NCBI GenBank assembly: GCA_017446685.1
Contig: JAFSQI010000033.1
Location: 1-32,617, forward strand
Source: Butyrivibrio sp.
GTDB lineage: Bacteria; Bacillota; Clostridia; Lachnospirales; Lachnospiraceae
Direction: 5' to 3'
Length of the DNA stretch: 32,617 nucleotides
Shown here: one piece after another, positions 10,497 to 32,400 of the stretch
How the letters are laid out: each line of letters starts with the position of its first letter
Position numbering within the stretch: position 1 is the first letter of the stretch
Notes under the pieces: generated by a model
The model's database searches: none
Told to the model about the DNA's origin: nothing
What the model saw: only the letters and a program-made list of their open reading frames with translations
Translations under genes and position numbers: made by a program

Positions 10497-10500
10497 AATT

Positions 10501-11178
10501 ATGATCATAAATCAGGTTACGGCTATTAACGTTGATTTTCTGGAAAATCCTGATTGTTTTCGCAGATGGTATGAAAAGATGCCTTCATACAGACAAAAGA
10601 AGATTGATGCTTTTAAACCTGCTCCAAGTAAAAAACTATCTCTTGGAGCAGGAATTTTGCTGTATATGGGATTTAAAGAATTAGGGCTTGAAAAAGCTGA
10701 AATAGAGTTCGGAAAAAACGATAAGCCATTAATAAAGGGCAACAGTGAAATCTATTTTAATCTTTCTCATTCCGGTAGTATGGCGGTCTGCGCTATTTCT
10801 GATAAGAATGTGGGAATAGATATTGAAGAAAATAAAAAATTCAGTGAAAAACTGATAAATTATATATATAATGAAAAAGAAACTAATTATATTAAGGGTA
10901 TAGCTCTTGATCAAAAAAACGAAAACAAAATGTTCACAAAGCTGTGGACCATGAAAGAAAGTCTGATGAAATATGATGGTACAGGATTATCAATGGGACC
11001 TTCTTCGATTATCATAGATATGGAAAATGAAAGCTTTTCTTTAAAAAAAGGCGTAAAATTTGAAAATGTTTTTTTTACATCCTATGAGCTTTTGGATTAT
11101 CAGGTAAGTGTTTGTTCTGAATATGATTGTTTTTCAGAGCAAATAAAAATATACAGGGGAGAGGAGCTGTTATTATGA
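10501..11178 (+). CDS. 4'-phosphopantetheinyl transferase, Sfp type
   Basis: Transfers the phosphopantetheine arm of coenzyme A to a serine of carrier proteins of fatty acid, polyketide or non-ribosomal peptide synthesis. The 225-residue length fits the Sfp/EntD group. Motifs: FNLSHSG at 86-92, GIDIE at 105-109 with the metal-binding Asp107 and Glu109, and KLWTMKES at 147-154 followed by Lys157. It begins 4 bases after the previous stop, and its stop overlaps the next ATG (ATGA at 11175-11178), so it sits firmly within the signalling operon. No carrier protein or synthase gene is in the window, so its substrate cannot be named. Confidence 0.9.
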   Translation: MIINQVTAINVDFLENPDCFRRWYEKMPSYRQKKIDAFKPAPSKKLSLGAGILLYMGFKELGLEKAEIEFGKNDKPLIKGNSEIYFNLSHSGSMAVCAISDKNVGIDIEENKKFSEKLINYIYNEKETNYIKGIALDQKNENKMFTKLWTMKESLMKYDGTGLSMGPSSIIIDMENESFSLKKGVKFENVFFTSYELLDYQVSVCSEYDCFSEQIKIYRGEELLL

Positions 11179-12131
11179 TAGTTTTAGGTGTACTTCCGGC
11201 AGCAGTATTGATGTTCTATATTTTTAAGGCGGATAAAAAAGAAAAAGAGCCGGTGGATCTTTTGGCAAAACTGTTCTTGTGGGGCGTATGTTCTACAATA
11301 AGCGCAGTTATTTTAGAATCAATCGGTGATACTATTCTGGATATTTTTTTCTGGAATGAGAGTTTGATCTACATAATTCTGGAAAATTTCCTTGTGGTTG
11401 CACTTGCGGAGGAATTTGGAAAGTATTTTGTTGTTAAGAAGCTTGCATGGAAACATCCTGCATTTAATTATACTTTTGACGCTGTAGTGTATGCTGTTTT
11501 TGCTTCACTTGGGTTTGCGGCACTGGAAAATGTCCTTTATCTTACGGATGCAGATCTTACGACAGCAGTTATGAGAGGTATTCTTGCAGTTCCAGGGCAC
11601 GCAATTGATGCTGTGTTTATGGGAGCTTATTTTGGAAGAGCCAAGAGATGTGAAGCGCTAAACGACAATGAGGGCACAAAGAGCAATTTGAGTAAGGCAC
11701 TATGGATTCCTGTTCTTACTCATGGCTTTTATGATTTCTGCCTTTCCGTTGACAGTTTTCTTGCAACAATTGCCTTCTTTGTTTTTGAGATTGTTATTAC
11801 TATTTATGCAATCAGAAAGGTTAAGCAGCTTTCTAACGAAGATACAGCTATTTTTGCAGGAGAATATCCAGGAGCAGGTCCTGTCAGAGAAATGTTTGCA
11901 AATGGTATGATGCACTTTGATCCGGCTACAGGGCGTCCCGTCATGTATAGTGCAAAGCCTGCCATGAACTATGATCCTATGACAGGAAAGCCACTCAATA
12001 TGCCAAATTCTCCTCAATATGGTATGAATTTTGACCCGATGACAGGAAAACCTCTTAATAATGGACAAAACATCCAGGCTCAAAATATGAAAATGAGGTA
12101 TGATCCTGTAACCGGTGAGCCAATCACTTGA
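11175..12131 (+). CDS. PrsW-family intramembrane metalloprotease with repeated C-terminal tail
   Basis: A 318-residue multi-pass membrane protein. Family residues are visible: EEFGK at 79-83, ALENVLY at 116-122, GHAIDAVFMG at 141-150 (His142, Asp145) and THGFYDF at 182-188 (His183, Asp187). PrsW in Bacillus performs site-1 cleavage of an anti-sigma factor; here no anti-sigma gene is adjacent, so the target is unknown. After the last helix comes a tail of about 75 residues with four copies of an octamer (F/Y)DP-x-TG-x-P at residues 248, 266, 286 and 309. Start: ATG 11175 has the ribosome site GGGGAGAGGAG and overlaps the previous stop; an upstream TTG at 11127 would run deep inside the previous gene. 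Confidence 0.85.
   Translation: MIVLGVLPAAVLMFYIFKADKKEKEPVDLLAKLFLWGVCSTISAVILESIGDTILDIFFWNESLIYIILENFLVVALAEEFGKYFVVKKLAWKHPAFNYTFDAVVYAVFASLGFAALENVLYLTDADLTTAVMRGILAVPGHAIDAVFMGAYFGRAKRCEALNDNEGTKSNLSKALWIPVLTHGFYDFCLSVDSFLATIAFFVFEIVITIYAIRKVKQLSNEDTAIFAGEYPGAGPVREMFANGMMHFDPATGRPVMYSAKPAMNYDPMTGKPLNMPNSPQYGMNFDPMTGKPLNNGQNIQAQNMKMRYDPVTGEPIT
11916..12122 (+). repeat. Four coding repeats of (F/Y)DPxTGxP in the PrsW-like tail
   Basis: Copies at 11916-11939 (FDPATGRP), 11970-11993 (YDPMTGKP), 12030-12053 (FDPMTGKP) and 12099-12122 (YDPVTGEP). Spacings are 54, 60 and 69 bases, so the repeat is in the protein and not an exact DNA tandem. Residues between are rich in Asn, Met, Gln and Pro, as in a flexible, probably cytosolic or surface-exposed tail. 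Confidence 0.9.
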
Positions 12132-12202
12132 TGAAAATCTGAATTAACATTTTTTTGTAGACTATGAGCGTAAGCTTAAAAATTCATGTAGAATCGTGTT
12201 AT

Positions 12203-12754
12203 TTAATCAAGAAGCTTTTTGATTTCACAGTTACCTGTAAGATTGTCCCAAAAGTTTTTGAGTGGGGTGCCCTTTATCTGTGATATTATTGCGCAGTTGA
12301 GGGCGCCGTGTCCCACAATCAGAATGTCTTTTTTTTCTTCAAGAAGCGGATATACCTTTTCTTTTAGAAATTCTCCGGTTCTTTCAAACAGTTCTTCAAA
12401 GGATTCAGCACCTCCCTGCTTTACATATGCTGTAGGATTTACAAAAAGATCATTTATCGGGCAGGAAGGATTGTTGAAATAGCTAAGATATCCTTCGTAC
12501 TCACCAAAACCCATTTCAATCAGTCTGTCATCTATGATTATTGGTGTATTTGTTCCTTCCAGCATAAGTTCTGCAGTTTTTTTAGCTCTTTGAAGAGGAG
12601 AGCAAAAGCAAATGTCAAAATGAAGACCCTTAAGGGAAGCGCGGGCATCTTTTGCCATTTTTATCCCGGTTTCATTTAATGGGATATCTACATGCCCCTG
12701 TAATTTTTCAATTACATTCCAATCAGTTTTGCCATGCCTAGTTATATATAACAT
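12203..12754 (-). CDS. Histidine phosphatase family protein (phosphoglycerate mutase-like)
   Basis: A 183-residue cytoplasmic enzyme of the branch-1 histidine phosphatases. TRHGKTDWN at residues 5-13 carries the catalytic His7; CSPLQRAKKTAEL follows near 50-62; the second catalytic His lies in VGHGALN near 147-153. Members range from true phosphoglycerate mutases to alpha-ribazole phosphatase and broad phosphatases; the short length favours a phosphatase. The start at 12754 has AAGGAG about 8 bases upstream on the minus strand. It is divergent from the glycosyltransferase at 12966 and convergent with the PrsW gene; no clear terminator was seen in the 71 bases between the latter two. Confidence 0.88.
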   Translation of the reverse strand: MLYITRHGKTDWNVIEKLQGHVDIPLNETGIKMAKDARASLKGLHFDICFCSPLQRAKKTAELMLEGTNTPIIIDDRLIEMGFGEYEGYLSYFNNPSCPINDLFVNPTAYVKQGGAESFEELFERTGEFLKEKVYPLLEEKKDILIVGHGALNCAIISQIKGTPLKNFWDNLTGNCEIKKLLD

Positions 12755-12810
12755 ATATAAACTCCTTGTATTTTAATTTAATCCAACTGAATAGCAACCA
12801 GTAACGTTTG

Positions 12811-12885
12811 AACTGTAACATTATATCATTTTGTAGAGGTTGATTTATATCACTTTTAACTATATTATGATATGATGTTACAGTT
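12811..12885. promoter_or_regulatory. Inverted repeat between divergent genes, candidate shared operator
   Basis: The arms AACTGTAACATTATATCAT (12811-12829) and 12867-12885 are reverse complements at 18 of 19 positions, separated by 37 bases. The left arm contains the minus-strand hexamer TATAAT (12825 down to 12820), a -10 for the phosphatase gene, although no good -35 was found for it. The right arm overlaps the end of the -10 and the expected start point of the plus-strand promoter. Such symmetry suggests one regulator controlling both genes, or looping. Confidence 0.5.
12840..12868 (+). promoter_or_regulatory. Putative sigma-A promoter of the glycosyltransferase gene
   Basis: TTGATT (12840-12845), a 17-base spacer and TATTAT (12863-12868). 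It lies about 100 bases before the ATG at 12966, and its -10 meets the right arm of the inverted repeat described for this intergenic region. Confidence 0.55.
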
Positions 12886-12965
12886 TAAATTTGTAATGCG
12901 CATTTTTTGAGAAGATAATTCAGGAGTGGCGTATTCCTGAGCTATTTATTTAGGGGAGATATATC

Positions 12966-14474
12966 ATGAGTAAGAGAGACAGAATATCCTGTTGTCTGTT
13001 TTTTATAATCACATCTTTTATTTTTCTTTTGATTGCATCCAGATCTTCATTTGTATATGTATTTAACAATTGGGATGATGTAAACAGTTATTTTTCAGTG
13101 GGAAAGGGGATATTTAACGGAAAAGTTCCATATAGAGATATCTTTGATCAAAAAGGCTTTTATCTCTATTTTATATATGGTGTTGCTTATCTTATATCAC
13201 ATACAACATTTTTGGGCGTATATTTAATAGAAGTTTTCTTTGGAGCGTTAGATATCCTTGGAATTTACAATATAGTTCGTCAGTTTGCTTCCAGAAGGTC
13301 TTCACTTTTGGTTTCACCGTTTGCATTTGCTTCTATTGTTGCTTCAAGGAGTTTTTGGTGGGGAGGATCAGCTGAGGAATTATGTCTTCCTTTTTATATC
13401 TGGGGATTGTATTTTTTAGTTGATTATTTTGAGAATGATTATCCTAAGCGACCAATTGGAAAGAAAAGGCTTTTACTGGCTGGGATTTTTGCAGGGATTA
13501 TAGCTAATGTAAAGTTTACCGGACTTGGATTTTTCTTTGCATGGATGATGATTGTTTTTTTTGCTATTGTGATATCGGAAGATTTCGCGGCTGGAATAAG
13601 GGCCTGTGCCTGGTTCCTATTTGGAATGTTTGTGCCATTTATTCCGGGAATAATTTATTTTGGCGTAAACGGGGCTCTTTATGACTGGTATTGGGGATAT
13701 GTTTATGTAAATGTGTTTGTTTACAATAAGCTTGAAACCGAGCATCTTGGTCTGCTTGGGAAAATATATCAGCTTTTAAAAATATTATACTGGCTTATTA
13801 TAGATAACTGGCAGTATTTTGTATTTATTATTTTGGGAATGTTTTATGTATTTTTTAAAAGAGGACAAAAGCTTTTAGCAAGGATTTATGCACCGGTTTT
13901 ATTTCTTTTTATGTTTCTTGGAATATTTATAGGAGGAAGGGAACTTCCTTATTACTCGCTTCCACTTTCGGCTTTTTCATCTTTGGGTGTGGTTGTACTT
14001 GCTAAAGCTATTGATGTACTTGGCAAGTATGAAACAAGGGGATTTGGAAATGTTGGCCTTCCCAGTATTTGTCTCATGATCTCAATAATTTTTATTGCAA
14101 TTAATTCTATGAATGTTTCGTTTATGGGGCAAAGCAGTGAAGATTATTTTCTATATAGGTTCAGAGATGAGGTGCTGCAGACAGAGGATGCTACACTTCT
14201 TAACGTGGGTTGCCTGGATGCAGGTCTTTATACATTATGTGATATAGTACCTGGCTGCAGATGGTTTCAGACTCAGACTCTTGATATAGATGAGGAGGGA
14301 AATAATCCGTATGCTGAGCAGGAGCGCTATGTAAGAGAAGGATTGGTTGACTATGTACTTGTTAGAGATACAGTACCGGCATCAATTGATGATCATTATG
14401 CTCTTATTGATAGTGAAGTCTATGGTTGGGGCGATTATGAATTTAATTACTATCTGTATCAGAAGGTAAGGTAA
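12966..14474 (+). CDS. Polytopic GT-C fold glycosyltransferase, GT39-like
   Basis: A 502-residue membrane protein with about ten or more hydrophobic helices. The first external loop after helix 1 reads NNWDDVNSYFSVGKG and IFNGKVPYRDIFDQKG, matching the acidic loop and the G-x-x-P-Y-R-D phrase seen in many family 39/83 lipid-linked sugar transferases. These enzymes move a sugar from a polyprenyl phosphate carrier onto protein, lipid or cell-wall polymer at the outer face of the membrane. AGGGGAGATATATC before the ATG gives a good ribosome site. Acceptor and sugar cannot be told from sequence. It is not in an obvious polysaccharide cluster, only opposite a histidine phosphatase with which it may be co-regulated. 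Confidence 0.72.
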   Translation: MSKRDRISCCLFFIITSFIFLLIASRSSFVYVFNNWDDVNSYFSVGKGIFNGKVPYRDIFDQKGFYLYFIYGVAYLISHTTFLGVYLIEVFFGALDILGIYNIVRQFASRRSSLLVSPFAFASIVASRSFWWGGSAEELCLPFYIWGLYFLVDYFENDYPKRPIGKKRLLLAGIFAGIIANVKFTGLGFFFAWMMIVFFAIVISEDFAAGIRACAWFLFGMFVPFIPGIIYFGVNGALYDWYWGYVYVNVFVYNKLETEHLGLLGKIYQLLKILYWLIIDNWQYFVFIILGMFYVFFKRGQKLLARIYAPVLFLFMFLGIFIGGRELPYYSLPLSAFSSLGVVVLAKAIDVLGKYETRGFGNVGLPSICLMISIIFIAINSMNVSFMGQSSEDYFLYRFRDEVLQTEDATLLNVGCLDAGLYTLCDIVPGCRWFQTQTLDIDEEGNNPYAEQERYVREGLVDYVLVRDTVPASIDDHYALIDSEVYGWGDYEFNYYLYQKVR

Positions 14475-18944: not shown

Positions 18945-19370
18945 ATGGATAGAATGAAACAATTCGGATATCGCTTAAACAGTTCACTTGCTCGTTTGTT
19001 TTATGGTAGAAACGGTTTTGACAATATGGCAAGAGCAAGTTACATTCTTGGTCTTATTCTTATAGTTTTAAATGTTTTCACAGGTTTTGGCTGGCTTTAT
19101 TATTTATATATTTTATTAATTGGATATTCTATTTTCAGAGCATTTTCGAGAAATATTCAAAAAAGATATGCAGAGAATCAAAAATTCATGGAAGTTACAA
19201 AGGTTCCACGTTCATTTTTTAAAATGTGCTACATGCAGATTAGAGATATAAAGTACAGCAGATATTATATATGCGGAAAATGTCATCAACAGATACGTGT
19301 TCCAAGAGGAAAGGGCAGGATAGAAATCACTTGTCCGAGATGCAGAAATAAGTTTGTTAAGAGAACCTGA
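18945..19370 (+). CDS. Two-helix membrane protein with C-terminal zinc ribbon
   Basis: 141 residues: a basic N-terminus, two adjacent hydrophobic segments (~33-47 and ~49-66), a basic linker, then a C-terminal zinc ribbon with Cys110, Cys113, Cys130 and Cys133 (CGKC and CPRC). The ribbon would lie in the cytoplasm. AGGAGG (18931-18936) precedes the ATG. The DnaJ-domain gene starts 27 bases after the stop, so the two are probably co-transcribed. Function is not established; the pairing suggests a membrane-linked chaperone or quality-control role, which is inference. Confidence 0.72.
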   Translation: MDRMKQFGYRLNSSLARLFYGRNGFDNMARASYILGLILIVLNVFTGFGWLYYLYILLIGYSIFRAFSRNIQKRYAENQKFMEVTKVPRSFFKMCYMQIRDIKYSRYYICGKCHQQIRVPRGKGRIEITCPRCRNKFVKRT

Positions 19371-19397
19371 GTTTTTACAGATAAAGAGGAAAAAAGT

Positions 19398-19931
19398 ATG
19401 GTAATGAATCCATATCAGGTGTTGGGAGTTGATCCTTCCGCAACCCAGGAAGAAATAAAAAAGGCATACAGAACGCTTGCAAAAAAGTATCATCCTGATT
19501 TACATCCTGGTGATCAGAATGCTGCAGCTAAAATGAATGAGATAAATGAAGCTTATACTATTCTGACTAAGCCTCATACTGCCAGAGGCAATTCGTATTC
19601 TGGAAATTACGAAAGGACATATCGCGGGCAGGGAACCTACAATGGTTCACATTTTGAGCAGAGATCATACAGCAACGGATATAGTAATGATCAGAATAAC
19701 GAGTATGAGAATCCATTTGAGAATTTTGGCGGATTTTATTGGAGCTATAATGGTAATTCCAACATGAATTCGACAAATAATTCTTATAATTTTGGAAACG
19801 GATGGAACAATCAGCAGTGGTATGGCAGGAGACAAACAGGAGGAGTAAGTATATTTACAAGGCTTGTGAGATGGTTCCTTGCTTATCAGCTTATATCGTT
19901 TCTTTTTAGAATGTTATTGTATATACATTAA
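19398..19931 (+). CDS. Membrane-anchored J-domain protein
   Basis: 177 residues. A J-domain at 4-57 ([23 protein letters not shown] at 32-34, [10 protein letters not shown]) would stimulate the ATPase of an Hsp70 such as DnaK. A Gly/Asn/Tyr/Ser-rich stretch (~62-145) follows, then a hydrophobic C-terminus (~150-177, [23 protein letters not shown]) that probably anchors the protein in the membrane. It lacks the zinc-finger and substrate-binding parts of DnaJ, so it is a class III J-protein. Start ATG 19398 has AGAGGA 7 bases upstream; ATG 19404 is an alternative. A strong terminator follows. Confidence 0.88.
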
Positions 19932-21515: not shown

Positions 21516-22361
21516 ATGAATTATTCAGTTAGATTTCTTAATCCGTCGGAACTATATCTTTATCCGGAAATCCCGGAGTATTTCCGTTTATTAAATGATC
21601 ATTTTTGTGAGATGATCGGTTTTATTTTTGAAAATGAGCTTGCTGGTTTATTGGTTGCAACAACTAATAAAGATGCCTCCATAGCCGCAAGATTACAATA
21701 TATGTATTTCGCAGATGGGAAAAAAAGCATAAGGCTTATGCATTATATGCTGTCAATTCTTTGTGATGAGCTTAAGAAAAAAGGTATAAGTGAGCTTGAA
21801 TATTTTTATTGTCTTTTGGGAAATATTCCTGAAGAAGCACTTAAACCGGCAGATTTTAATAAGCTTGGATTTAAAAAAGAAAGCGCCGCTATACATGGTT
21901 GTGGATGGTATGTGCAGGATGTTTTTGACACGGATTTTTTTATAAATATGATGCCATTTGCCACAAGTAATGAATGCCTGAAGGGTTTTTCAAATTTCTC
22001 GGAAAATCGCAATCTGATCAATTTAAGAAAACTTGGTGAAGGTGCAAAGAAAGCATTAATTGAGAGCCCTTACGGGAAATTTTACATTTCTGATAATGAT
22101 GTACTTGGAATGCTTACTATGGAAATGAAAGATGATAAAACGATAATTGTTCCGGATTTTTTTGTCAAAGGAAATACTGATTCGTATAAAGTATTTGAAG
22201 AACTTCTGGCGGGGGTTCTTGATCTTGGACTTGAAGGACAAGGAATGGATGCCAGAATTTTCGGCAGATTCAGCGATGAAACTCAGTTGGAAAAAATGGA
22301 GAATATCTTTGGAAAATCAACTATTCCGGTGAGTTTTGAGCGATATAGTTTAATTCTTTGA
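21516..22361 (+). CDS. GNAT-like protein with degenerate acetyl-CoA loop, partner of the giant gene
   Basis: 281 residues, cytoplasmic. The first ~130 follow the GNAT acetyltransferase pattern (GFIFENELAGLLVA, then LMHYMLSILCDELKKKGISEL, then FNKLGFKKE), but the acetyl-CoA loop RxxGxG is not visible (ADGKKSIRL), so activity is doubtful. The second half (~150-281) may be a further divergent GNAT-like unit (GLEGQGMDARIFGRF) but cannot be assigned. ATG 21516 has a G-run ribosome site (GGGGGG); TTG 21495 is less likely. The stop is 17 bases before the ATG of the 2643-residue gene, whose ribosome site overlaps this end, so the two are almost certainly one operon. Confidence 0.62.
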   Translation: MNYSVRFLNPSELYLYPEIPEYFRLLNDHFCEMIGFIFENELAGLLVATTNKDASIAARLQYMYFADGKKSIRLMHYMLSILCDELKKKGISELEYFYCLLGNIPEEALKPADFNKLGFKKESAAIHGCGWYVQDVFDTDFFINMMPFATSNECLKGFSNFSENRNLINLRKLGEGAKKALIESPYGKFYISDNDVLGMLTMEMKDDKTIIVPDFFVKGNTDSYKVFEELLAGVLDLGLEGQGMDARIFGRFSDETQLEKMENIFGKSTIPVSFERYSLIL

Positions 22362-22378
22362 CAGAGGGGAAATTTAAA

Positions 22379-25300
22379 ATGGGAAATAATGAGGAAATGC
22401 TTCAAAAACCTAAGAAGAAGCAGGTTATAGATACTAATGAGCCGACAATACTTGAACAGGACCAGACTTTCGTATCACCATATCAGGTAATGGACAAAGC
22501 TGCAATCGAGTGGGATACTGTCAGGAATTTTCATCAGAATTCCATGAAGATGACAAAGACAGATAATACCTATACAAATCAGTTTGAAAATCTTGATCTT
22601 TACGAACTTCGAAATCTTCTTGATACAGACAGTGAAAAAAAGTCAAAGACATTTGAGAGAATGTTTAATTCAGTAGATAATCTTCTGGAACTTGCCCAAA
22701 ATAACGGAACAAAGGAAATTGGAAACGGTAAATTTCTTTCAATGGATTTTGCCTCAGCTTTAAAAAAGGCAAAGACAAATACTTCCAAGTACATTTCAAG
22801 CAGGAAAAAGAGCTTTTATTTCTGGGAAAAGGGAAAGAGAAGAGTAGATATAGCAGAGCGAATAGAATTTCTTCTTTCACAACTTGATGAGGCAATAAAC
22901 AAAAGAATCGAAAAACTCGATAAGGATAAGAAGAAAGAAGCCGAGTACGTAAAAAAGGGTTATTCTAAAGAAAAAATCGAAGAGCTTATGGCAATAGAAA
23001 GTGTGGAAGAAGAAAGCCTTGACCTCACCAGGCTTCTTAAGAGTGGATTATTCGGGCCTTCTATTGATAAGGAAATGGAAGAAAGCATCAGCAAGAAGTG
23101 GATTGCCGGCAATTTTACCAAAGAACTTCTTGAAATGATCGGAGATAAAAAGGGTGCTAAGACCAAAGAGGAAAAGGACTCTTTAATTGCATTTATAGAA
23201 GGCACAAATGAGAGGCTTCTTGCCAATAAAATGACAGTTACGATTCTTATAGAGGCAGATGTAAAGGCTACACTTGGAATTTCTGTACTTAAGGATGACC
23301 TTAAGAGATATCTTAATGAAAAACTTCAGGCAAATGATCTTTTAACCCTTGATCCTAGAGTAATTGCCGAAAAGACCAAAGATTTGATTGAGGAATATTA
23401 TGAAAATAATAAGGAAGAGCTTGCCGCTTCAAGAGAAAGAATTAAGACATTAGGACATCAGCTTCCACTTGGAAAGAACTTTGATCAGAACAGATATCTT
23501 AGAAGCATTATTGATTTTCCGCAGGTTATCAATATGCTTCTTGCTTCTGATGAAGAATTTGAGGCTCAGCTTGAAGAAATTAAGCAGAAGATTTCTCAGG
23601 ATGACAAATTAATCGAAGATGAGCTCAAAAAGCATTTTTCTCCGGCTACAAGAAATGAAGTCATAAAAAGATTAAATGCCTACATGGGCGGACTTCGCCT
23701 TTTTGGCAGTACTGAATCAGTTCTTAATCAGGTAGGACTCTTCCGTGATGAAATGCAGTATATTGCGCCGGATGTATATAAAACCGAAAGAATGTTAAAA
23801 AGTGTAATGAGTAGTCTTGATGTGCCTGAATGTTATCGCGACTCATTCCTTGACTATATTACAAATGGTGTTCATGAGGAACTGAAAAATTACAAATTTG
23901 ACTTCTGGAAGGTAAGGGGAGAGGATTTTGCCAGAAATCTGAAAGCTAATACGAAAAATTATAATAAAAAAAATACTGTTCTTCTTTCTAAAGATGTATG
24001 GGATCAGTTGGAATCCTTGAAACTTGCCATGGGCGAGATGAAGCCTGAACAGTGTGAACTGGTTATTAAGCAGCTTATTGAAAGCGGCAGGATGGAAACA
24101 GGAAAGAAACTCAGCAGAAAAGAGTACATAACTAAAAGAAATTTTGAAGATCAGGAAAAGCTTCCGGTCAGACTTGAGCATATTGCAGTTGAAAAAGAAA
24201 AAATCAGCAATATAGGAAATTCCTATGATGATATGTTCTACATTCAGCTTTTTAACGATGGAAAGAAGCTTACTGATAATTATGAAGCGGTAGATGGTAT
24301 ATACAGGGACATTAAGACCTTTAACAATATTCAAAAGCATTACGGTATCTCAAAATATAAAGAAGTTAAGAAAGCACGTATAGAAAAACTTCATGAGCAT
24401 CTTAAGAACGAAGGAGTAAGCAGGGATAAATTCAGTTTATTTGATAAGAAACTTGCTTATCTGATTGACGTAGTGATCGATATTTCAGATGAGAATGTAT
24501 TTGCTGATGTAAGGCTTAGAAATGAGCGTGAAAACCTGGAAAAATTCGGAGTTCACAGCTTTGAAGATGTGCTTGCAAGGCTTGACAAGGATTTAATAAA
24601 GTGTATCGAAAATAATCAGGAAAACGATAAGGTAACTGAAGTTAAGGAAAAGTATGAGAAGGCACTTGAAACTATTTCTGATTATGATGATGGTGCATTT
24701 GAAAATATAGCAGAGATACTTGCAGATATTCCTGAAGTGTTTAAAGCTATGATGGATCCGGATCCAAAAGTTTTAAGCGATGTGATTGAGAACGTAATTG
24801 TGCCAAGATTTACTCCTGTCATGGATTCTTTATCGAAGCTTCAGGAGACGGAATTTCATGCACAGGCTATTCTTACTGAGTTTATTTATTCCAATAGAAG
24901 AGAAATCTTTAACGGAACTGATACAGGAACTTCAGAGGAATATCATACCCGTGTTAAGCAGTACGGTGAGAGAATACATGATCTAAAAATAAAGGGAAAT
25001 CTTTTATTTGCACAAAAAGCTATGGAAAATCAGCTTTATGCTCTTTTCCACAGAAATGAAAGCGAAAATCCTGATCCTAAGAAGCATGAAACCAAGAGAA
25101 GACTTCGCGGAGATGAGATAGTGCTTATCTCTGAAATCCTATACAGGCTTATGCTCGAGGCAGATGATGTAGAGTCTTTTGAAGGCCTTCTTGATAAAAA
25201 GACTACGGAAGAAAGAGCATTAAAACTTCTTGATGAGAATCTTGGAAAGCTTGGAAATGACTACGTATTTGACAAGGAAATAACAGACAAAGTCACTATT

Positions 25301-28300
25301 CCTACAAGTTCTTTGAACATTACTGAAGGCCAGAAAAAGAGAAATGAGATAATTTCCCGTAAGAATAAAGGAACAAGAGCAACTAAGAAATATCTTGGAT
25401 TTGATAACAGAAAGCTCAATAACATAAGACAGGGAAAATCACTTGTAAGAGTCAATGCAAAGGATTCAGTGTCTTTGACATATTCAAAGAAATCTGCTGA
25501 TCTCATAAGAGGAGCCTTAAAAGAGCAGATTGATTTCCTGCTGCCTGATGTAATCAAAGATGCAATTATTGAAACCTATGCCATCAACAGCAAAGATATC
25601 GTAGAAGATTATATATATGAGATAAACGGATCATTCCACAGTCTTATGTATCAGCATGCGGTTAAGCTTTATAACCTTTATCATTATCTTTTGACAGAAG
25701 ATAAAGCAAAGCCTGCCATGAGCGAAGAAGAAGCTCAGATGTATGTTGTCCACCACTTTGGAATAGAGAAAAACAGAGAAAAGCTCTATAACAATGATGA
25801 TTTGTCTGTGACCTTTAAAAGCATAGAGGAGTCTGATGATTTTATTAAGTTCAGACAGAATTACCTTCAGCTTAAAAATATCGAAAATATGGATATAAAT
25901 GATCCGGCAATCAAAAAGGACTTTTTCGATATTACAAGGGATATCAGAGCTGCGCTGATTACCGGACAGGGTGTAAGAACCGGTGAAAAATTAGAAGCTT
26001 CAATAATGAAGTGCAGCAGATATCTTGAAGAAACAAATAATCTTACAAAGATAATCCGCAAGATTGTTGAGGAATATAGAAAAGGTGAAGATGGGAAAAA
26101 CTTCATTTCAGATTATCATTTGAATGCAGAAGTACTTTCCCTTAGAAACTACTTTTCCGAAGATTTGATAAATGATCTCACAGAGGGAAAAGAGTTTGAT
26201 TCTAAAGCCTGGTATGACAAGGTTAAGGAAATATACGGAAATGATCTTTACAGAAAGAATCTTTTAGGATTTTCTGAAAGTGTTTCCTCGGAAAATTATG
26301 AAAAGTATAGGAAAAATGTTTCCGGATCGATTGGAAATGAGGCTCTTATCGAAAAAGTTATTGAGAATTCACAGATATTTTTCCATGGAAGACTCAATAA
26401 ATATCAGGCACTTGACAGTGATCAGAAGAAATTCTTTGCAGTTGCTCTTTTGATGATGGACAGAGGCACAATAGGCTACGGTACTAACGGAACTTCTGCT
26501 CTTCTTCTGGCTAAGGATAAAAGAAAAGAGTCCATGGACGAAATATCTGCAGAGCTTGATAAATATGTGCGCGGAGAGAATTACAACCTGAAAATTGATT
26601 ATACTGAGGCGCTGTATAAGCTCTGCGACTACAATATAAATTCTTTCCTCAATTTTGGAGAGAAGTACAAGATCAATGTTGAAGCCTATGAAAAGGCTAT
26701 GCAGTTTGCAAAGGCTGTTTATGAAAAGAAAAACAAAGAAGATGCATCCGGTGAAAAAGATTTAGAGAGGATGAAGGAAGGTACGTCTTCTATCGAAGCA
26801 GCTTTTATGGCAGCAGGAAAGCATCAGAAAAATGAAGTGGATAAGACTCGTGACATTGATTTTAAGCCTGAAGATGTCGTTGAAAGACTTCTTGGATTTG
26901 CTAAAAAAGATCAGGTCAGCAGAAAGTCTTTGGTACTTGGAGGAGCACTTGCTGTTACAGGCGCGGCTGTAATTTCGGGAGTTACTGTTGCAGAAAAGAA
27001 GATTATTGCAGCAAACCAAAAGGAAGTAGAAGAACAAAACAAACAAAATAATATTAAGCGCGAAGAAAAAAAGAAAAATCCGAATGTTGCCGTTAATGCA
27101 GACAGAGATGCAAAGAAAGTTACGACAACAAATGTTCAGGAAGGTGCAATTAATGCAGTTGGAAGTCTTGGACTTGGAATAGTCGGGGCAGGAATTAAGG
27201 TGGGTGATAAGCCTGCCAAGCAGTATGCAAGAATGAGAATGATAATAAAGCGCCTTGAAAAGATTTCAAAGAATAAGAGTGATATGAATCTTTTTGTGCG
27301 CATTATGCAGGATAGAACAGTTCTTGATAAGAGTACAAGTGGCTCGGATTCTCATGTTGACCAGGATTTAAGAGACAGACTATTTGAGGCGCTCACAGGA
27401 GATGTTACTATAGCAGGCAAAACTCTTGAAGGCTTTTCAGATAATGAATCCTGTCACAATGCCTATAATAACGCGCTTTCTTTCCAGCTTCGTGATGATA
27501 CTTTCTTTAAGGATAAGGTCATTGGCAAGGAACATTTTGCAGGCGGAGCTCTTGATCGCAAAACTATGGTTGACTGGGATCTTATCGAAAAAGCATTTGA
27601 GTTCATGGATGAAATCATGAATCGCAGAGCTACGATTGCAGCTACCGGAAAAGCAACCGATTTTATACGTCAGGCAGGAAATAATTATGCAATCAAAGAA
27701 CTTGATGAACTTGAGAAGAATTATAAAGAAAAGAAAGATTTTGATCTGGCTGCCTTCGAGAGTAAGTTAAAAGACAATCTTAACAAGGATATGGATAATC
27801 ACAATCCATTTACCAGTGAACCGTCAATAAACAGTGCGTATGCCGGCTATATGTCGCTTACCAATGCGGAAAAGAATCTTTTCTTTAAAGTACTGCAAAA
27901 CAGAGATCTTTTGGATATATCAAAGAAAAACTATATTCAGAACTATTTTGGCTGTAATGACAGAAATTATCTGAATCCTTCAGGAAGAAACAAGCTTGTG
28001 AGTGAATTTATAGAGAGCTCACTTTCAGACGGCATTGGTGTACAAATTGATGAGCAGGCTTATTACAATGCTATGAAGACACTTCTTTCAACTCAGGTAA
28101 GTGATGTGGTCGATTATCGAAGAACTAAGGATATAGCAGGCAAACAGTCAGAATTTATGTCACTTCTTCCCGGAAGAATGACAGGCATTTTCTCATATGA
28201 AAGATTCGGCTTTTTTGCCAGAGGAACAGCTATTGACTGGAAACTCTTTAAGAGAGCACTTCAGTTTGTCAATCGTGCAAAAAAAGAGCTGCAGGCACAG

Positions 28301-30310
28301 GAAGGCAATGCTCTTTTGTACAGAGGCGCCGGAGATCTTTTGGAAAACGGAAATATGGTTCTTGATTATAAGTTCCTTAGACGAAATATCCATAAGACAG
28401 GAAACTGGCTGACACGCTATATCGGAAAGAAGATTGCCGGAAAAGTTAAGGAAACAACAGGAATCGATAAGACTCTTGATACTATTTTGACAATACTTGA
28501 CGGAGCCGAGTATGGAGTAGGAACTATTGCCGGAAATGATGGTGCAGTAGGTACAAGCATAAACTGGCTTAAGGGCAAGGTAAGTGGCGTTAAGGACATA
28601 ATTTCTTTCCGTGAAGAAAGTACATTTGAAAAGATAGGAGTAAAGACCGCAGAGGAGGAAAAAGAGGAAAAGGAAGAAGCTGCAAAGACAAAAGAGCAGA
28701 AGGAAGAGGAAAAGAAGAAAAAACAAGAGGCAGAGAAAAAGCGCAGAGAGGAACTTCTTCTTTTTGAACAGCTTAAGGAAGGCTTTGACAACATTGTTGC
28801 TGAAAAGAAGAGCATCGAGAGCGTTGCTGATGCGATGGGAACTCTTGTCAATGATAAGCTGGGACTGTATTTGAATAAGCAGGCAACAGGTGCGGCTGCT
28901 GAGCTTGATAAGGAAAATATTGTCAATAAGGCAACTACAAATATGAAGGCTGATGATAAAAACGGCGACTTTAGAGATGCTATTAAGAGTATGACCGGAA
29001 TGGCCCAGTTTTCCTGGGAAACACTTGATTCAGTGCCATTTGTAAGTAACCTTAAAAAGCTCCTTATTTACGGTGTTAAGCAGGCAGTATTTAATGGAAT
29101 TGGTTATGATGAAAAGACCGACGGCAAGATCTTTTACAACAAAAACGGAGAGGGGATTGTTCCGAATAACAGGGACGAGGAAATCAAAATCTATGAAGAG
29201 AACTTTGAGAAAAAGCTCATGGTAGCAGCCGGCGTTCTGACGGAAAAGATTTTTGGACAAGAGTTTGTTAAAGATATAAAAAATGTCGAGCAGGCTGTAT
29301 ATGATGTAAAAGAGTTTATAACAGATAATTCCAAGAAGGTTACAAAGGCAATAGGTTATGTGAACAAAACGGTTGATCATGTCAAAGGTATAACCAATTC
29401 AATCCATAACATTTATTACCTTAAATCTGAAGAAAAGTTTGCTGGCTCAAAGCGTGAAGAAGATGACATAAAGGTCGAGGAACGCACCAGGAACAGACTT
29501 ACCGGGGAACAGGCTAAAAAAGCTAAGGATATGCTAAGTACTCACCGCGGAATGAGCGAGCTTTCAGGTACTGTTACAACTGCAATGCAGGGCTTTAATA
29601 TTGCCAGCGAGTCTATTAACCTTGCAATTGATACTGTTAACACCTGTGGCTTAAAGCTCAATGTTGGACAGGAAGTTGTCTCAACAGCAATAAAAGAGGG
29701 ACTTGAATTTTTGATGTTTGCCTCACGTATTTTTGCTGACAGAAATGCTATAAGAGATTATTTATTTACTACACCTGATGGCATTAATATGGTAAAGAAG
29801 CTTATTGACGGATTTAATAAGAGCGGAAGTAATTCTCCGGATACTGCGGAAAAGAGCAGACTTCTTTCAAATGTATTAATGATTTATCAGAATAATTCAG
29901 TAAGCTATACGCCAAGAACTCTTAACGAAATCAGGAATGAGGAAGGAACGGGAGTTATCTCTAAAGGATATTACAAGCTTAAAAAAGGAGTTACCTGGTT
30001 TGCTGGAAAGGTCAAAAATGCTGTTGGAAATGCTCCTGAGAATATAGGCGATGAAATTGATTCGTTACAGGTTATCGATGTAATATCCGATTGTCAGGGA
30101 TATGAGCATACTTCAGAACTTATCGAGGACATAGGCATGAATATGGCCCAGTCGATTGTCTTTTGCTCAAGTAAATATAATCCGTCTGCTGAGACAAAGC
30201 TTATGGCCATAGCTGTAATGACAGTTCTTGGTTTAAAACCCAGTGAGATTGGAAATACATCTCAGGAAACTGTAGCAAGAGTATTTAAAGGATTTAAGAT
30301 GGCAAGATAG
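22379..30310 (+). CDS. Giant protein of unknown function, 2643 residues, with internal repeats
   Basis: I recognise no family. The chain is highly charged, Lys/Glu/Asp-rich and predicted by eye to be mostly helical. There is no signal peptide. Two glycine-rich hydrophobic segments lie at ~1518-1538 (LVLGGALAVTGAAVISGVTVA) and ~1590-1608 (AINAVGSLGLGIVGAGIKV). Three divergent copies of a 110-150-residue module lie at ~1342-1453, 1616-1751 and 1821-1971. A highly charged coiled-coil stretch spans ~2091-2131. I saw no Walker motif, protease triad, cysteine cluster or wall-anchor motif. ATG 22379 follows AGAGGGG (22363-22369); a TTG at 22358 is an alternative that would overlap the upstream gene. 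It forms a two-gene unit with the GNAT-like gene and ends 303 bases before the BlaI gene. A large scaffold or toxin-like membrane-inserting protein are both possible. Confidence 0.85.
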   Translation: MGNNEEMLQKPKKKQVIDTNEPTILEQDQTFVSPYQVMDKAAIEWDTVRNFHQNSMKMTKTDNTYTNQFENLDLYELRNLLDTDSEKKSKTFERMFNSVDNLLELAQNNGTKEIGNGKFLSMDFASALKKAKTNTSKYISSRKKSFYFWEKGKRRVDIAERIEFLLSQLDEAINKRIEKLDKDKKKEAEYVKKGYSKEKIEELMAIESVEEESLDLTRLLKSGLFGPSIDKEMEESISKKWIAGNFTKELLEMIGDKKGAKTKEEKDSLIAFIEGTNERLLANKMTVTILIEADVKATLGISVLKDDLKRYLNEKLQANDLLTLDPRVIAEKTKDLIEEYYENNKEELAASRERIKTLGHQLPLGKNFDQNRYLRSIIDFPQVINMLLASDEEFEAQLEEIKQKISQDDKLIEDELKKHFSPATRNEVIKRLNAYMGGLRLFGSTESVLNQVGLFRDEMQYIAPDVYKTERMLKSVMSSLDVPECYRDSFLDYITNGVHEELKNYKFDFWKVRGEDFARNLKANTKNYNKKNTVLLSKDVWDQLESLKLAMGEMKPEQCELVIKQLIESGRMETGKKLSRKEYITKRNFEDQEKLPVRLEHIAVEKEKISNIGNSYDDMFYIQLFNDGKKLTDNYEAVDGIYRDIKTFNNIQKHYGISKYKEVKKARIEKLHEHLKNEGVSRDKFSLFDKKLAYLIDVVIDISDENVFADVRLRNERENLEKFGVHSFEDVLARLDKDLIKCIENNQENDKVTEVKEKYEKALETISDYDDGAFENIAEILADIPEVFKAMMDPDPKVLSDVIENVIVPRFTPVMDSLSKLQETEFHAQAILTEFIYSNRREIFNGTDTGTSEEYHTRVKQYGERIHDLKIKGNLLFAQKAMENQLYALFHRNESENPDPKKHETKRRLRGDEIVLISEILYRLMLEADDVESFEGLLDKKTTEERALKLLDENLGKLGNDYVFDKEITDKVTIPTSSLNITEGQKKRNEIISRKNKGTRATKKYLGFDNRKLNNIRQGKSLVRVNAKDSVSLTYSKKSADLIRGALKEQIDFLLPDVIKDAIIETYAINSKDIVEDYIYEINGSFHSLMYQHAVKLYNLYHYLLTEDKAKPAMSEEEAQMYVVHHFGIEKNREKLYNNDDLSVTFKSIEESDDFIKFRQNYLQLKNIENMDINDPAIKKDFFDITRDIRAALITGQGVRTGEKLEASIMKCSRYLEETNNLTKIIRKIVEEYRKGEDGKNFISDYHLNAEVLSLRNYFSEDLINDLTEGKEFDSKAWYDKVKEIYGNDLYRKNLLGFSESVSSENYEKYRKNVSGSIGNEALIEKVIENSQIFFHGRLNKYQALDSDQKKFFAVALLMMDRGTIGYGTNGTSALLLAKDKRKESMDEISAELDKYVRGENYNLKIDYTEALYKLCDYNINSFLNFGEKYKINVEAYEKAMQFAKAVYEKKNKEDASGEKDLERMKEGTSSIEAAFMAAGKHQKNEVDKTRDIDFKPEDVVERLLGFAKKDQVSRKSLVLGGALAVTGAAVISGVTVAEKKIIAANQKEVEEQNKQNNIKREEKKKNPNVAVNADRDAKKVTTTNVQEGAINAVGSLGLGIVGAGIKVGDKPAKQYARMRMIIKRLEKISKNKSDMNLFVRIMQDRTVLDKSTSGSDSHVDQDLRDRLFEALTGDVTIAGKTLEGFSDNESCHNAYNNALSFQLRDDTFFKDKVIGKEHFAGGALDRKTMVDWDLIEKAFEFMDEIMNRRATIAATGKATDFIRQAGNNYAIKELDELEKNYKEKKDFDLAAFESKLKDNLNKDMDNHNPFTSEPSINSAYAGYMSLTNAEKNLFFKVLQNRDLLDISKKNYIQNYFGCNDRNYLNPSGRNKLVSEFIESSLSDGIGVQIDEQAYYNAMKTLLSTQVSDVVDYRRTKDIAGKQSEFMSLLPGRMTGIFSYERFGFFARGTAIDWKLFKRALQFVNRAKKELQAQEGNALLYRGAGDLLENGNMVLDYKFLRRNIHKTGNWLTRYIGKKIAGKVKETTGIDKTLDTILTILDGAEYGVGTIAGNDGAVGTSINWLKGKVSGVKDIISFREESTFEKIGVKTAEEEKEEKEEAAKTKEQKEEEKKKKQEAEKKRREELLLFEQLKEGFDNIVAEKKSIESVADAMGTLVNDKLGLYLNKQATGAAAELDKENIVNKATTNMKADDKNGDFRDAIKSMTGMAQFSWETLDSVPFVSNLKKLLIYGVKQAVFNGIGYDEKTDGKIFYNKNGEGIVPNNRDEEIKIYEENFEKKLMVAAGVLTEKIFGQEFVKDIKNVEQAVYDVKEFITDNSKKVTKAIGYVNKTVDHVKGITNSIHNIYYLKSEEKFAGSKREEDDIKVEERTRNRLTGEQAKKAKDMLSTHRGMSELSGTVTTAMQGFNIASESINLAIDTVNTCGLKLNVGQEVVSTAIKEGLEFLMFASRIFADRNAIRDYLFTTPDGINMVKKLIDGFNKSGSNSPDTAEKSRLLSNVLMIYQNNSVSYTPRTLNEIRNEEGTGVISKGYYKLKKGVTWFAGKVKNAVGNAPENIGDEIDSLQVIDVISDCQGYEHTSELIEDIGMNMAQSIVFCSSKYNPSAETKLMAIAVMTVLGLKPSEIGNTSQETVARVFKGFKMAR
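26402..28291 (+). repeat. Three divergent internal protein repeats within the giant gene
   Basis: The copies start at codons 26402, 27224 and 27839. Each opens with an Leu/Lys helix and a core like LFFKVLQNRDLLDIS (copy 3), LFVRIMQDRTVLDKS (copy 2) and KFFAVALLMMDRGTI (copy 1). Each ends with a helix: INVEAYEKAMQFAKAVYEKK (1), VDWDLIEKAFEFMDEIMNRR (2), IDWKLFKRALQFVNRAKKEL (3). The hydrophobic pair of segments lies between copies 1 and 2. Confidence 0.7.
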
Positions 30311-30382
30311 AAAATCAGCAATTGCAGGGACATTTATTCGATCAGAAAAAAATGAAAGAAAAATAAAAAAAGATAACAGCTA

Positions 30383-30411
30383 TTAACAATTAACTTGTGT
30401 TATCCGATAAT
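30383..30411 (+). promoter_or_regulatory. Putative promoter of the blaI-like/M56 pair
   Basis: TTAACA (30383-30388), a 17-base spacer and GATAAT (30406-30411). The expected start near 30418 gives a leader of nearly 200 bases that contains several hairpins. A GATAACA/TGTTATC inverted repeat (30372-30378 and 30398-30404) overlaps the promoter and could be an operator. Confidence 0.45.
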
Positions 30412-30454
30412 AAGAGTGTAAGGAATACTATAGCCATTTCCTGCACTCTTTTTT
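30412..30454 (+). terminator. Terminator-like hairpin after the giant gene
   Basis: AAGAGTG (30412-30418) pairs with CACTCTT (30444-30450), continued by AGGAA/TTCCT (30421-30425 with 30438-30442) across a small bulge, and is followed by a T-run. It can end transcription from the giant gene and lies directly on the proposed start point of the next promoter. Confidence 0.65.
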
Positions 30455-30456
30455 AT

Positions 30457-30570
30457 CGGAAATGATATTTCCGAATAAAAGAGCTCCGCTATGGATGCGA
30501 CTGGTGTGCAAATGTGTATGCAAGCTGAAGCTTGCGCACACCAGCGCCAGAGAATTGTAAACAATTCTCT
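30457..30570 (+). promoter_or_regulatory. Structured leader: three successive hairpins before the BlaI-type gene
   Basis: First, CGGAAAT/ATTTCCG (30457-30463, 30467-30473) with a 3-base loop. Second, CTGGTGTGC/GCACACCAG (30501-30509, 30536-30544), inside which GCAAGC/GCTTGC (30520-30525, 30530-30535) forms a TGAA-capped stem stacked on the outer one, with a 10-base bulge on one side. Third, AGAGAATTGT/ACAATTCTCT (30549-30558, 30561-30570) around AA, a perfect 22-bp palindrome 43 bases before the ATG. The last could equally be a repressor site on DNA. Confidence 0.55.
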
Positions 30571-30613
30571 GATTAAAGTGCAGGAGGGAGTTTACAAAAA
30601 GTGGGAGGTTCAT

Positions 30614-31006
30614 ATGCCAAGAGAAGAGATGCTTCCAAGTGAGAGCGAATGGCTTATTATGGAGACTTTATGGAATTGTGATCACGATCTTACTTCATCA
30701 GAGATAACAGAAAGACTTCCTGGGACTTCCAGCATGACGCAGAGGATGGTAAGGGTTCTGATCAACAGGCTTTGCAAAAAAGGACTTCTTTCATATACAG
30801 TTGATCCGCACGACAGTAGGGTTTATCACTATACGGCAACAAAAGGGAGGGATGAACTCAGACGTGAAAAGAGTAAGGCCTTTGCCAATAGCTACTTTGG
30901 AGGTAATACTGCCGGAGCTGCATTTGCTTTTTTGGAAAATGAGAAGCTTACTAAAGAACAGATTGCAGAGCTGGAAGCTATTATAAAGAAATCTAAGAAA
31001 CAGTAA
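30614..31006 (+). CDS. BlaI/MecI/CopY-family transcriptional repressor
   Basis: 130 residues with an N-terminal winged helix: LPSESEWLIMETLWNCDHDLTSSEI, then a recognition-helix region SSMTQRMVRVLINRLCKKGLL and a wing (YTVDPHDSRVYHYTAT). The C-terminal dimerisation helices (AFAFLENEKLTKEQIAELEAII) align with the region of BlaI/MecI that is cut on induction; where those have Asn-Phe this has Ala-Phe. GGGAGG (30602-30607) precedes ATG 30614, which matches family length; an in-frame ATG at 30491 would translate through the leader hairpins. The M56 metalloprotease gene follows 140 bases later, the classic sensor-repressor pairing. Confidence 0.88.
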   Translation: MPREEMLPSESEWLIMETLWNCDHDLTSSEITERLPGTSSMTQRMVRVLINRLCKKGLLSYTVDPHDSRVYHYTATKGRDELRREKSKAFANSYFGGNTAGAAFAFLENEKLTKEQIAELEAIIKKSKKQ

Positions 31007-31146
31007 AACCGGAATTTGCTAGCATCGAAGACTGATGACAACGCAGTAGATTCAAATTATAGCAAGTATATAGTCGAGTTAATATAAAACAGCTACACTA
31101 GGGACATCAGATATGTGCTCACGGATGAGCTTATGGAGGACAGGGA

Positions 31147-32400
31147 ATGTCGTTTCAAGAGTTTTTGCATGGTCTATATGAATTTTTACATTTCGTATGC
31201 GTATATTATGCGACCATACTTGGTTTTTGTGCGCTTATGTCAGTGATCGTTATAGGGATTATCATGTTGCTCAGGAGTACTTTGCTTTCCAAGTCCATAT
31301 TTGGGAAAGCTGCTTTATGGGCGCTGATGATTCCTTGTTTATTTTGTGGGAAACTGCACTTTTACGTGGAAACAAAGCTTGGTGTAAAGCTCTTTTACTG
31401 GTGGTATGCACTTTGTGGCAAGTGGCAGATTATTTCTCTGATATATATTCTTATAGGAATCAGCCTTGCGATCTGGCTCATTATTCGAAGGAGAAAGCTG
31501 CACAGACTGGTACGAAAACTTGATGACTATAAAGAGGATATGTCAAGATTCAGCATAAAGGTTATTGATGGAGACGTCTCCTCCTTCTGTACAGGGTGTA
31601 TTAGGCCGGTCATTGTTATTTCAAACAGATTGGAAAAAACTCAACTACAGACAGTTATTAAACACGAAGAAACTCACATAATGCTGGGACACTTGTGGAT
31701 TCAGCTATTATGGGAGGCCATTCGAATACTGTTATGGCCCAATGTTTTTCTGCATATCGGTGAAAGATATTTGAAAAGGGATCTTGAAGATGTCTGTGAT
31801 GCCGTAACGATGCAGCGAAATGATATAGGAGCGATAGAGTACGGCGAGGTTCTTTTGGATAATGCTAAAAGACTATCAGGAATAAGAGGAATATATGGTG
31901 CCAAAAGCGGATTGTCATTTTCCTGGGACGATAACTATAAGGTTCTAAAGAAAAGACTAAGAAGAATAACAGAGCATAGGAAGTATAACAGGAGGCTTAT
32001 TGCGGCAGGTATGTTTTTGTCTATAGTTCTTGTTATATCAATGATAGTAGGAATCAAAAACGTATCTTATGCAAGGTATAATCCTATTGACATTTCGGGT
32101 ATTTACAGTGAGGAAAAAATGGAGATTCTTGTGTATGATCGTGATGAGTCTATTGTTACTTATGATGATGAGTTTATTTTCATCGATTGTACAGAGCTTA
32201 AGCGTCGGTGCCCGGAAATTTTGAATGAGGAAAAAGATATTTACTTTGCCGTAGGAGGTTACTACAAGTTTCCCGGTATGGGCGGTGGCAGTGACATCGG
32301 ATGGGTAAGTGCCAAGACTATAGCAGATAATGATGGAGTCATTAAGATAGAGAAGTACAGTGGAATTGATTTCTGGACCTGGATAATCAAGTGGATGTGA
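31147..32400 (+). CDS. BlaR1-like M56 membrane metallopeptidase without a beta-lactam sensor domain
   Basis: 417 residues. Three or so hydrophobic segments (~20-43, 52-70, ~93-112) are followed by the M56 catalytic region with the zinc site HEETH at 173-177 and a further acidic pair in RDLEDVCDAV (~214-223). A fourth membrane helix (~285-306) precedes an outside domain of only ~110 residues (ARYNPIDISGIYSEEKMEIL to the end). True BlaR1/MecR1 have a ~250-residue penicillin-binding sensor there with SxxK; none is seen. It likely cleaves, or triggers loss of, the adjacent BlaI-type repressor in response to some other envelope signal. GGAGGA (31135-31140) precedes the ATG; a small GCTCA/TGAGC hairpin (31117-31130) lies just before it. 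Confidence 0.85.
   Translation: MSFQEFLHGLYEFLHFVCVYYATILGFCALMSVIVIGIIMLLRSTLLSKSIFGKAALWALMIPCLFCGKLHFYVETKLGVKLFYWWYALCGKWQIISLIYILIGISLAIWLIIRRRKLHRLVRKLDDYKEDMSRFSIKVIDGDVSSFCTGCIRPVIVISNRLEKTQLQTVIKHEETHIMLGHLWIQLLWEAIRILLWPNVFLHIGERYLKRDLEDVCDAVTMQRNDIGAIEYGEVLLDNAKRLSGIRGIYGAKSGLSFSWDDNYKVLKKRLRRITEHRKYNRRLIAAGMFLSIVLVISMIVGIKNVSYARYNPIDISGIYSEEKMEILVYDRDESIVTYDDEFIFIDCTELKRRCPEILNEEKDIYFAVGGYYKFPGMGGGSDIGWVSAKTIADNDGVIKIEKYSGIDFWTWIIKWM

Follow-up and report, generated by a model that had tools for sequence, protein, structure and literature searches.

A family of giant helical proteins from Butyrivibrio and other Lachnospiraceae with a likely link to contractile injection systems

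We analyzed a stretch of 32,617 nucleotides (nt) from Butyrivibrio sp. (contig JAFSQI010000033.1; the whole stretch is called the window), which contains a very large gene at positions 22379..30310. All features given here for the two-gene unit lie on the plus strand. The gene is open over 2643 codons, and its product, called the giant in the following, has a mass of 302 kDa, a pI of 5.9, and a grand average of hydropathicity of -0.62. Its start is the ATG at 22379, 9 nt downstream of the ribosome-binding site AGAGGGG (22363..22369); the mechanically predicted open reading frame (ORF) begins earlier, at TTG 22358. Given this length and 36 full-length homologues, the frame is not a product of chance. 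The giant gene is preceded by a gene for a protein of 281 amino acids (aa; 21516..22361, starting with ATG 21516), which resembles GCN5-related N-acetyltransferases (GNAT). This GNAT-like gene, recognized by profile match and synteny, stops at 22361, and the giant ATG follows 17 nt downstream; it is the first gene of a two-gene unit. The giant gene is followed by a T-run hairpin (30403..30460), a probable terminator. The region 30380-30460 folds with -26.5 kcal/mol (z -6.2), and the hairpin was missed by a simple scan because that scan permits only loops of 3-8.

Searches with the giant sequence returned nothing significant. There were no matches to Pfam at E 1 and none to PADLOC, a single NCBIfam row far under the cut-off, two PHROGs rows (E 0.28 and 0.78), and one row among PDB sequences (E 0.22). 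The initial annotation, which was made from the sequence alone and described a 2643-residue gene with a ribosome site and no assignable motif, was thus confirmed. Both ends of the giant are without a hydrophobic segment, and neither a signal peptide nor a membrane anchor is predicted at the N-terminus. We therefore rejected a surface or Sec-secreted protein, and, in view of the PADLOC result, a defense system.

AlphaFold models of residues 1-1200 and 1444-2643 were nearly all helix, in line with the mostly helical protein expected beforehand. Their mean predicted local distance difference test (pLDDT) values were 77.6 and 68.7, and their predicted template modeling scores were 0.40 and 0.64, respectively; the spatial arrangement of the whole chain is uncertain from these models. 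The structure search that the initial annotation had suggested was run on these two 1200-residue pieces. Both models were compared with PDB and the C-terminal one also with BFVD; Foldseek gave no match at E 0.001. A SidH match of the N-terminal model was dismissed (E 2.1, probability 0.03). The PDB matches of profile A7 (GldL, E 0.0009; designed coiled coils, 0.0013 and 0.0024; chemoreceptors, 0.11) and of profile A8 (FAM155A and a designed protein, both 0.008) were judged compositional. The central hydrophobic segments that had been noted in the sequence are present (residues 1519-1537 and 1590-1608, in a stretch at 26933..27202) and proved to be lineage-specific rather than family-defining. 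Among 11 members scanned, only the window giant and that of locus L086 have a hydrophobic segment there (L090 has one elsewhere), and residues 1501-1620 are poorly occupied in the family alignment (0.42 and 0.31). The proposed coiled coil corresponds to a K/E-rich, coiled-coil-like stretch at about residues 2140-2250, where model confidence is low.

We collected 36 full-length giants of 2031-3218 aa, 29 of them at <70% identity. Giants cut by contig ends (L014 and L102 among them) were left outside this set, and those of L100 and L118, broken by a frame break, were taken as found and not joined. The giants align end to end with the window giant, with 17-39% identity over 1866-2521 of its residues; the idea of a conserved N-terminus followed by a variable C-terminal toxin was therefore dropped. 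Conservation is highest at residues 1320-1500, 1621-2040, 2340-2460, and 2575-2640. Block R1 (residues 1320-1500; 26336..26878) weakly resembles R2 and R3, and the latter two form the core as tandem repeats (R2, residues 1621-1800; R3, 1801-2040; 27239..28498; hhalign probability 99.2). The region before these blocks, about residues 75-1319 (22601..26335), shows low but colinear conservation and is predicted to be helical in the part covered by the model of residues 1-1200; W241 is kept in 28/29 giants and W541 in 26/29. A further conserved region at the C-terminus (residues 2559-2643; 30053..30307) is helical in the model. The core at residues 1621-2040 and the C-terminus at 2575-2640 are likely the working parts of the giant.

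The distribution of the giants is patchy. Counting the window's own genome, giants were found in 5 of 200 genera of the family by single-sequence search, and by core profile search in 8 of 61 relatives and, within the order, in 4 of 392 genomes. When a collection of 84,980 species was scanned with patterns, 40 giant loci emerged, whose titles name Lachnospiraceae or Butyrivibrio in 38 cases and Clostridiales and Gracilibacteraceae in one case each. Six of the titles mention a site in the ruminant gut; the RUG and RUI codes in others presumably denote rumen sets. Homologues of similar length thus exist in many species, and profile searches revealed no described family. As judged from sequence comparison, this supports the view, already put forward in the initial annotation, that the giants are a new protein family, found mostly in Butyrivibrio and other Lachnospiraceae. 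A 574-aa shortened paralogue, consisting of giant core and C-terminus, is encoded on contig C59 (L005:12999-14723) and adjoins a SpoIIE-type phosphatase.

The GNAT-like protein of the window gave no Pfam match by itself. A profile built from it and three homologues, two of these four sequences keeping the acetyl-CoA motif, matched solved GNAT acetyltransferases (best E 8.7e-6), and the two other GNAT-like copies of the same genome are above the cut-off of PF00583. The motif, which we take to be [QR]xxGx[GA], was not found by a motif scan in the window protein. Among 52 distinct GNAT-like sequences, 15 contain it, a few of them possibly by chance, and 37 do not. Of the 37 loci that have a gene upstream of the giant, 23 have a GNAT-like one directly before it (<=100 nt), and the count is 17 of 28 when only giants at <70% identity are considered; several of the 37 loci belong to close relatives. 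This tally leaves out repeats (L121, L122, and L094, of L013, L012, and L030), second entries of the same loci (L037, L038, and L039, of L090, L093, and L106), the 574-aa paralogue (L005), L088 (no upstream gene), and giants whose start is not in the contig. Tandem arrays of GNAT-like genes and large proteins also occur. In L032, L033, and L119, same-strand GNAT-like genes flank the giant on both sides, and the second is followed by another large protein.

The giants co-occur with a phage-tail-like contractile injection system (CIS). Its baseplate J protein (CIS-J) was found in 15 of 61 genomes, and giants were present in 8 of these 15 CIS-positive genomes versus 0 of 46 CIS-negative ones (Fisher p 2.2e-6, uncorrected for phylogeny). 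Profile A7 added a giant in G214, raising the count to 9/15; this re-test covered 4 of the 46 CIS-negative genomes, all without a giant, and a weak match in G225 was not counted. In another seven genomes with a giant, J was detected in all but one. The giant-positive isolates Butyrivibrio sp. Su6, AE2015, and AE3009 (genomes G314, G433, and G526; loci L090, L093, and L106) belong to the window's genus, are 99% complete, and all carry CIS-J. Of 200 genera, 20 gave a J match, which was strong (E <1e-150) in eight; giants were present in 4 of these eight versus 1/192 others (any J, 4/20 versus 1/180).

Clade, habitat, or assembly type could produce such a pattern if the giant were a structural protein unrelated to the CIS. 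Indeed, G205, G221, and G228 share closely similar 2922-aa giants. In addition, each of the 14 CIS-positive genomes from the genus in our set is <90% complete and most CIS-negative ones are >90% complete, a confounder that counts against the link. Within the <90% class, the contrast was 8/14 versus 0/4 (one-sided p 0.07), or one-sided p 0.04 with nine giants. Nevertheless, two other window genes used as controls showed no significant enrichment: the gene for a BlaR1-like protein (E <1e-100) was found in 6/15 CIS-positive versus 9/46 CIS-negative genomes (p 0.17), and that for a 502-aa membrane protein (E <1e-150) in 1/15 versus 9/46 (p 0.43). The association also recurs across genera and in the three 99% complete isolates, and the genes are physically linked in L106 and L124 (see below). 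We consider an unrelated protein very improbable.

The genome of the window (G000) has a cluster of the extracellular CIS (eCIS) type on contig C59; the giant is on contig C118. The cluster encodes, above Pfam cut-offs, sheath, gp19 tube, CIS_tube, base_V, gp25, Pvc16_N, and AAA proteins. It also contains a GNAT-like gene (290 aa) followed by a gene for a 1455-aa protein. On contig C14, a GNAT-like gene (279 aa) is paired with a 1594-aa protein that has a C-terminal calpain domain (Peptidase_C2, E 4e-13); in L083 this protein (8562-13346) lies behind the GNAT-like gene and a 920-aa repeat protein. Papain-like motifs were read by eye in the 1455-aa and similar proteins, for which Pfam gave no call. 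Unusual further genes of the C59 cluster (G000, L059-L061) encode an SH3-like protein and a second AAA-type protein and, as read by eye, an FtsE-like ABC ATPase, a histidine-kinase-like protein, and a MORN-repeat-like protein. In AE3009 (L106), the giant lies in a gene run with a SpoIIE-type phosphatase, a secreted protein, an AAA ATPase, Tail_P2_I, two baseplate J proteins, and gp25. In L124, J and Tail_P2_I are the genes of at least 150 aa that precede the GNAT-like gene and the giant. CIS-type AAA ATPase genes are close to giants in L103, L105, and L115, and in G080 the giant is 12 kb from CIS genes. Taken together, a link between the giant family and the CIS is well supported, better than the payload role discussed below, and the giant is probably something that the CIS carries or needs.

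SpoIIE-type phosphatases are repeatedly encoded in the vicinity of giants and of CIS genes (L005, L039, L040, L059, L061, L086, L095, L101, L105, and L124; Pfam-checked in L005 and L039), which suggests phosphorylation-linked control. The giant as the CIS tape measure protein was rejected: it is on another contig and was undetected in 6 of 15 CIS-positive genomes, and the tape-measure rows in a viral search of the giant were not significant (best 0.13). From gene order, our guess for the tape measure is an 852-aa protein of the CIS cluster.

The N-terminus of the giant (residues 1-39; 22379..22495) is hydrophilic and predicted to be disordered (pLDDT <50; 31-38 across residues 1-40), and is a candidate loading signal. 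The Kyte-Doolittle sum of the first 50 residues had a median of -54.9 in 29 giants and was -48.0 in the window giant, versus -1.85 in 180 other ORFs. Since these control ORFs were not filtered for membrane proteins, internal 50-mers are the fairer comparison; the N-terminal 50 residues of the giants exceeded on average 81% of them in hydrophilicity. The corresponding sums of the 1455-aa and 1594-aa proteins were -52 and -64. Hydrophilic, disordered N-termini are reported as eCIS loading signals, with loading involving an AAA ATPase, in PMC11297309 and PMC11495950. The initial annotation, which saw no secretion or toxin signature, thus went too far: it missed the GNAT-like gene that ends 17 nt before the giant, the association with the CIS, and a hydrophilic, predicted disordered N-terminus like those reported for eCIS payloads.

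A CIS payload is the best single inference for the giant, and we give it an even chance, because the same kind of gene pair lies inside the CIS cluster, a related GNAT-like pair has a protease domain, and the N-terminus resembles the loading signals described in those sources. The GNAT-like protein, with its acetyl-CoA motif mostly lost, would act as a dedicated chaperone or adaptor that binds the giant. The giant N-terminus may then be engaged by an AAA ATPase of the CIS cluster, and the helical chain would be loaded into or onto the CIS particle and delivered to another cell. More tentatively, and with the odds somewhat against it, rumen Butyrivibrio may have an undescribed CIS with a new class of helical payloads of 2.3-3.2 thousand residues, each with a degenerate GNAT as loading chaperone. 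These payloads would act alongside papain- and calpain-like proteases, perhaps being delivered into rumen protozoa or competing microbes.

Several observations weigh against a payload. No recognizable toxin or enzyme domain was found in the giant with the family libraries, PDB, or Foldseek, and its segments did not match the 1455-aa or 1594-aa protein, so a common payload module is not shown. CIS payloads are usually variable, unlike this colinear family. No giant was detected in 6/15 CIS-positive genomes; four genera (G041, G174, G176, and G180) gave strong J matches and no giant with A7. Conversely, a giant but no J was detected in G023, which is 60% complete. In most loci seen, including that of the window, the giant is apart from CIS genes, and 14 of 37 loci are without a detected GNAT-like gene directly upstream. 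Their upstream position is taken by another large protein (L030 and L103), a SpoIIE-type phosphatase (L105 and L106), other genes, or a frame break (L118). As to the N-terminus, CIS machine proteins of the cluster are fairly hydrophilic there too (-23 and -26), the first eight residues of the window giant contain no aromatic residue, and mean pLDDT over residues 1-50 is 42, compared to <40 for eCIS signals in the literature. DUF4157 was not matched in the giant's own genome, in a search that gave no signal in any control.

Part of this evidence would fit a non-injected CIS accessory, a large helical protein that serves as scaffold, anchor, or platform for assembly in the producing cell, together with its GNAT-like partner. 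Since the giants align over their whole length across genera rather than varying as toxins do, are almost entirely helical, and are without a recognized toxin domain, we retain this explanation, which we nonetheless hold to be unlikely. The giant was not detected in 6 of 15 CIS-positive relatives and so is probably not essential to the CIS machine. Moreover, the giant is mostly not beside CIS genes, and the same class of partner precedes the calpain protein and the 1455-aa protein, which both look like cargo. The patchy distribution, the tandem arrays, and the frequent distance of the GNAT-like and giant pair from CIS genes would also suit a stand-alone toxin or conflict module (a modifier plus the giant) that shares the CIS accessory pool and uses another route. 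Such a module is improbable, since giants were found in none of the 46 CIS-negative genomes, have no N-terminal hydrophobic signal, and are not matched by PADLOC.

Other genes of the window were also noted. Positions 3919-10496 contain one run encoding a hybrid EAL-histidine kinase-Hpt protein, a response regulator, and a second EAL protein. At 18945-19931, a small membrane protein ending in CxxC...CxxC adjoins a J-domain protein whose C-terminal part has a hydrophobic segment. Downstream of the giant lies a BlaI/BlaR1-like pair (30491-32400). In G211, a genome where CIS-J was not detected, the BlaR1-like protein has a 98% identical counterpart, a hint of gene exchange.

The proposed payload role gives an orphan family of ~300-kDa proteins a testable context, since Butyrivibrio sp. 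AE3009, AE2015, and Su6 carry both the giant and CIS-J. It also points to a Butyrivibrio CIS: in the accessible part of the open-access literature, we found no description of a Butyrivibrio, Lachnospiraceae, or rumen CIS, or of a GNAT-linked CIS, of this kind. Should the GNAT-like proteins prove to be loading partners, this would make them a new type of adaptor and a gene-order marker for CIS cargo.

Compared to known systems, the giant resembles eCIS payloads such as Afp18 and the PVC effectors Pdp1 and Pnf in its tie to an eCIS-type cluster with a Pvc16-type protein and an AAA ATPase, in its hydrophilic N-terminus with predicted disorder, and, in the case of Afp18, in its very large size. 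The giant differs from these payloads in that no toxin domain or DUF4157 was found, its gene is usually away from the cluster, a GNAT-like gene lies directly upstream, and the family is helical and colinear. According to PMC11126660, Tme (BN159_7576) of Streptomyces davawensis is a tape-measure-related DUF4157 CIS effector with an endonuclease end. The giant shares with Tme that it is a CIS-linked protein from a Gram-positive bacterium, and differs in that neither a DUF4157 or tape-measure relation nor an endonuclease end is shown, and in that the cluster has its own tape-measure candidate, the 852-aa protein guessed from gene order. In type VI secretion systems, effector adaptors and chaperones (Eag and DUF4123) are small partners encoded beside each large cargo. 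The GNAT-like gene adjoins the giant in the same manner and, from gene order, is a candidate partner that, unlike Eag and DUF4123 adaptors, is GNAT-like.
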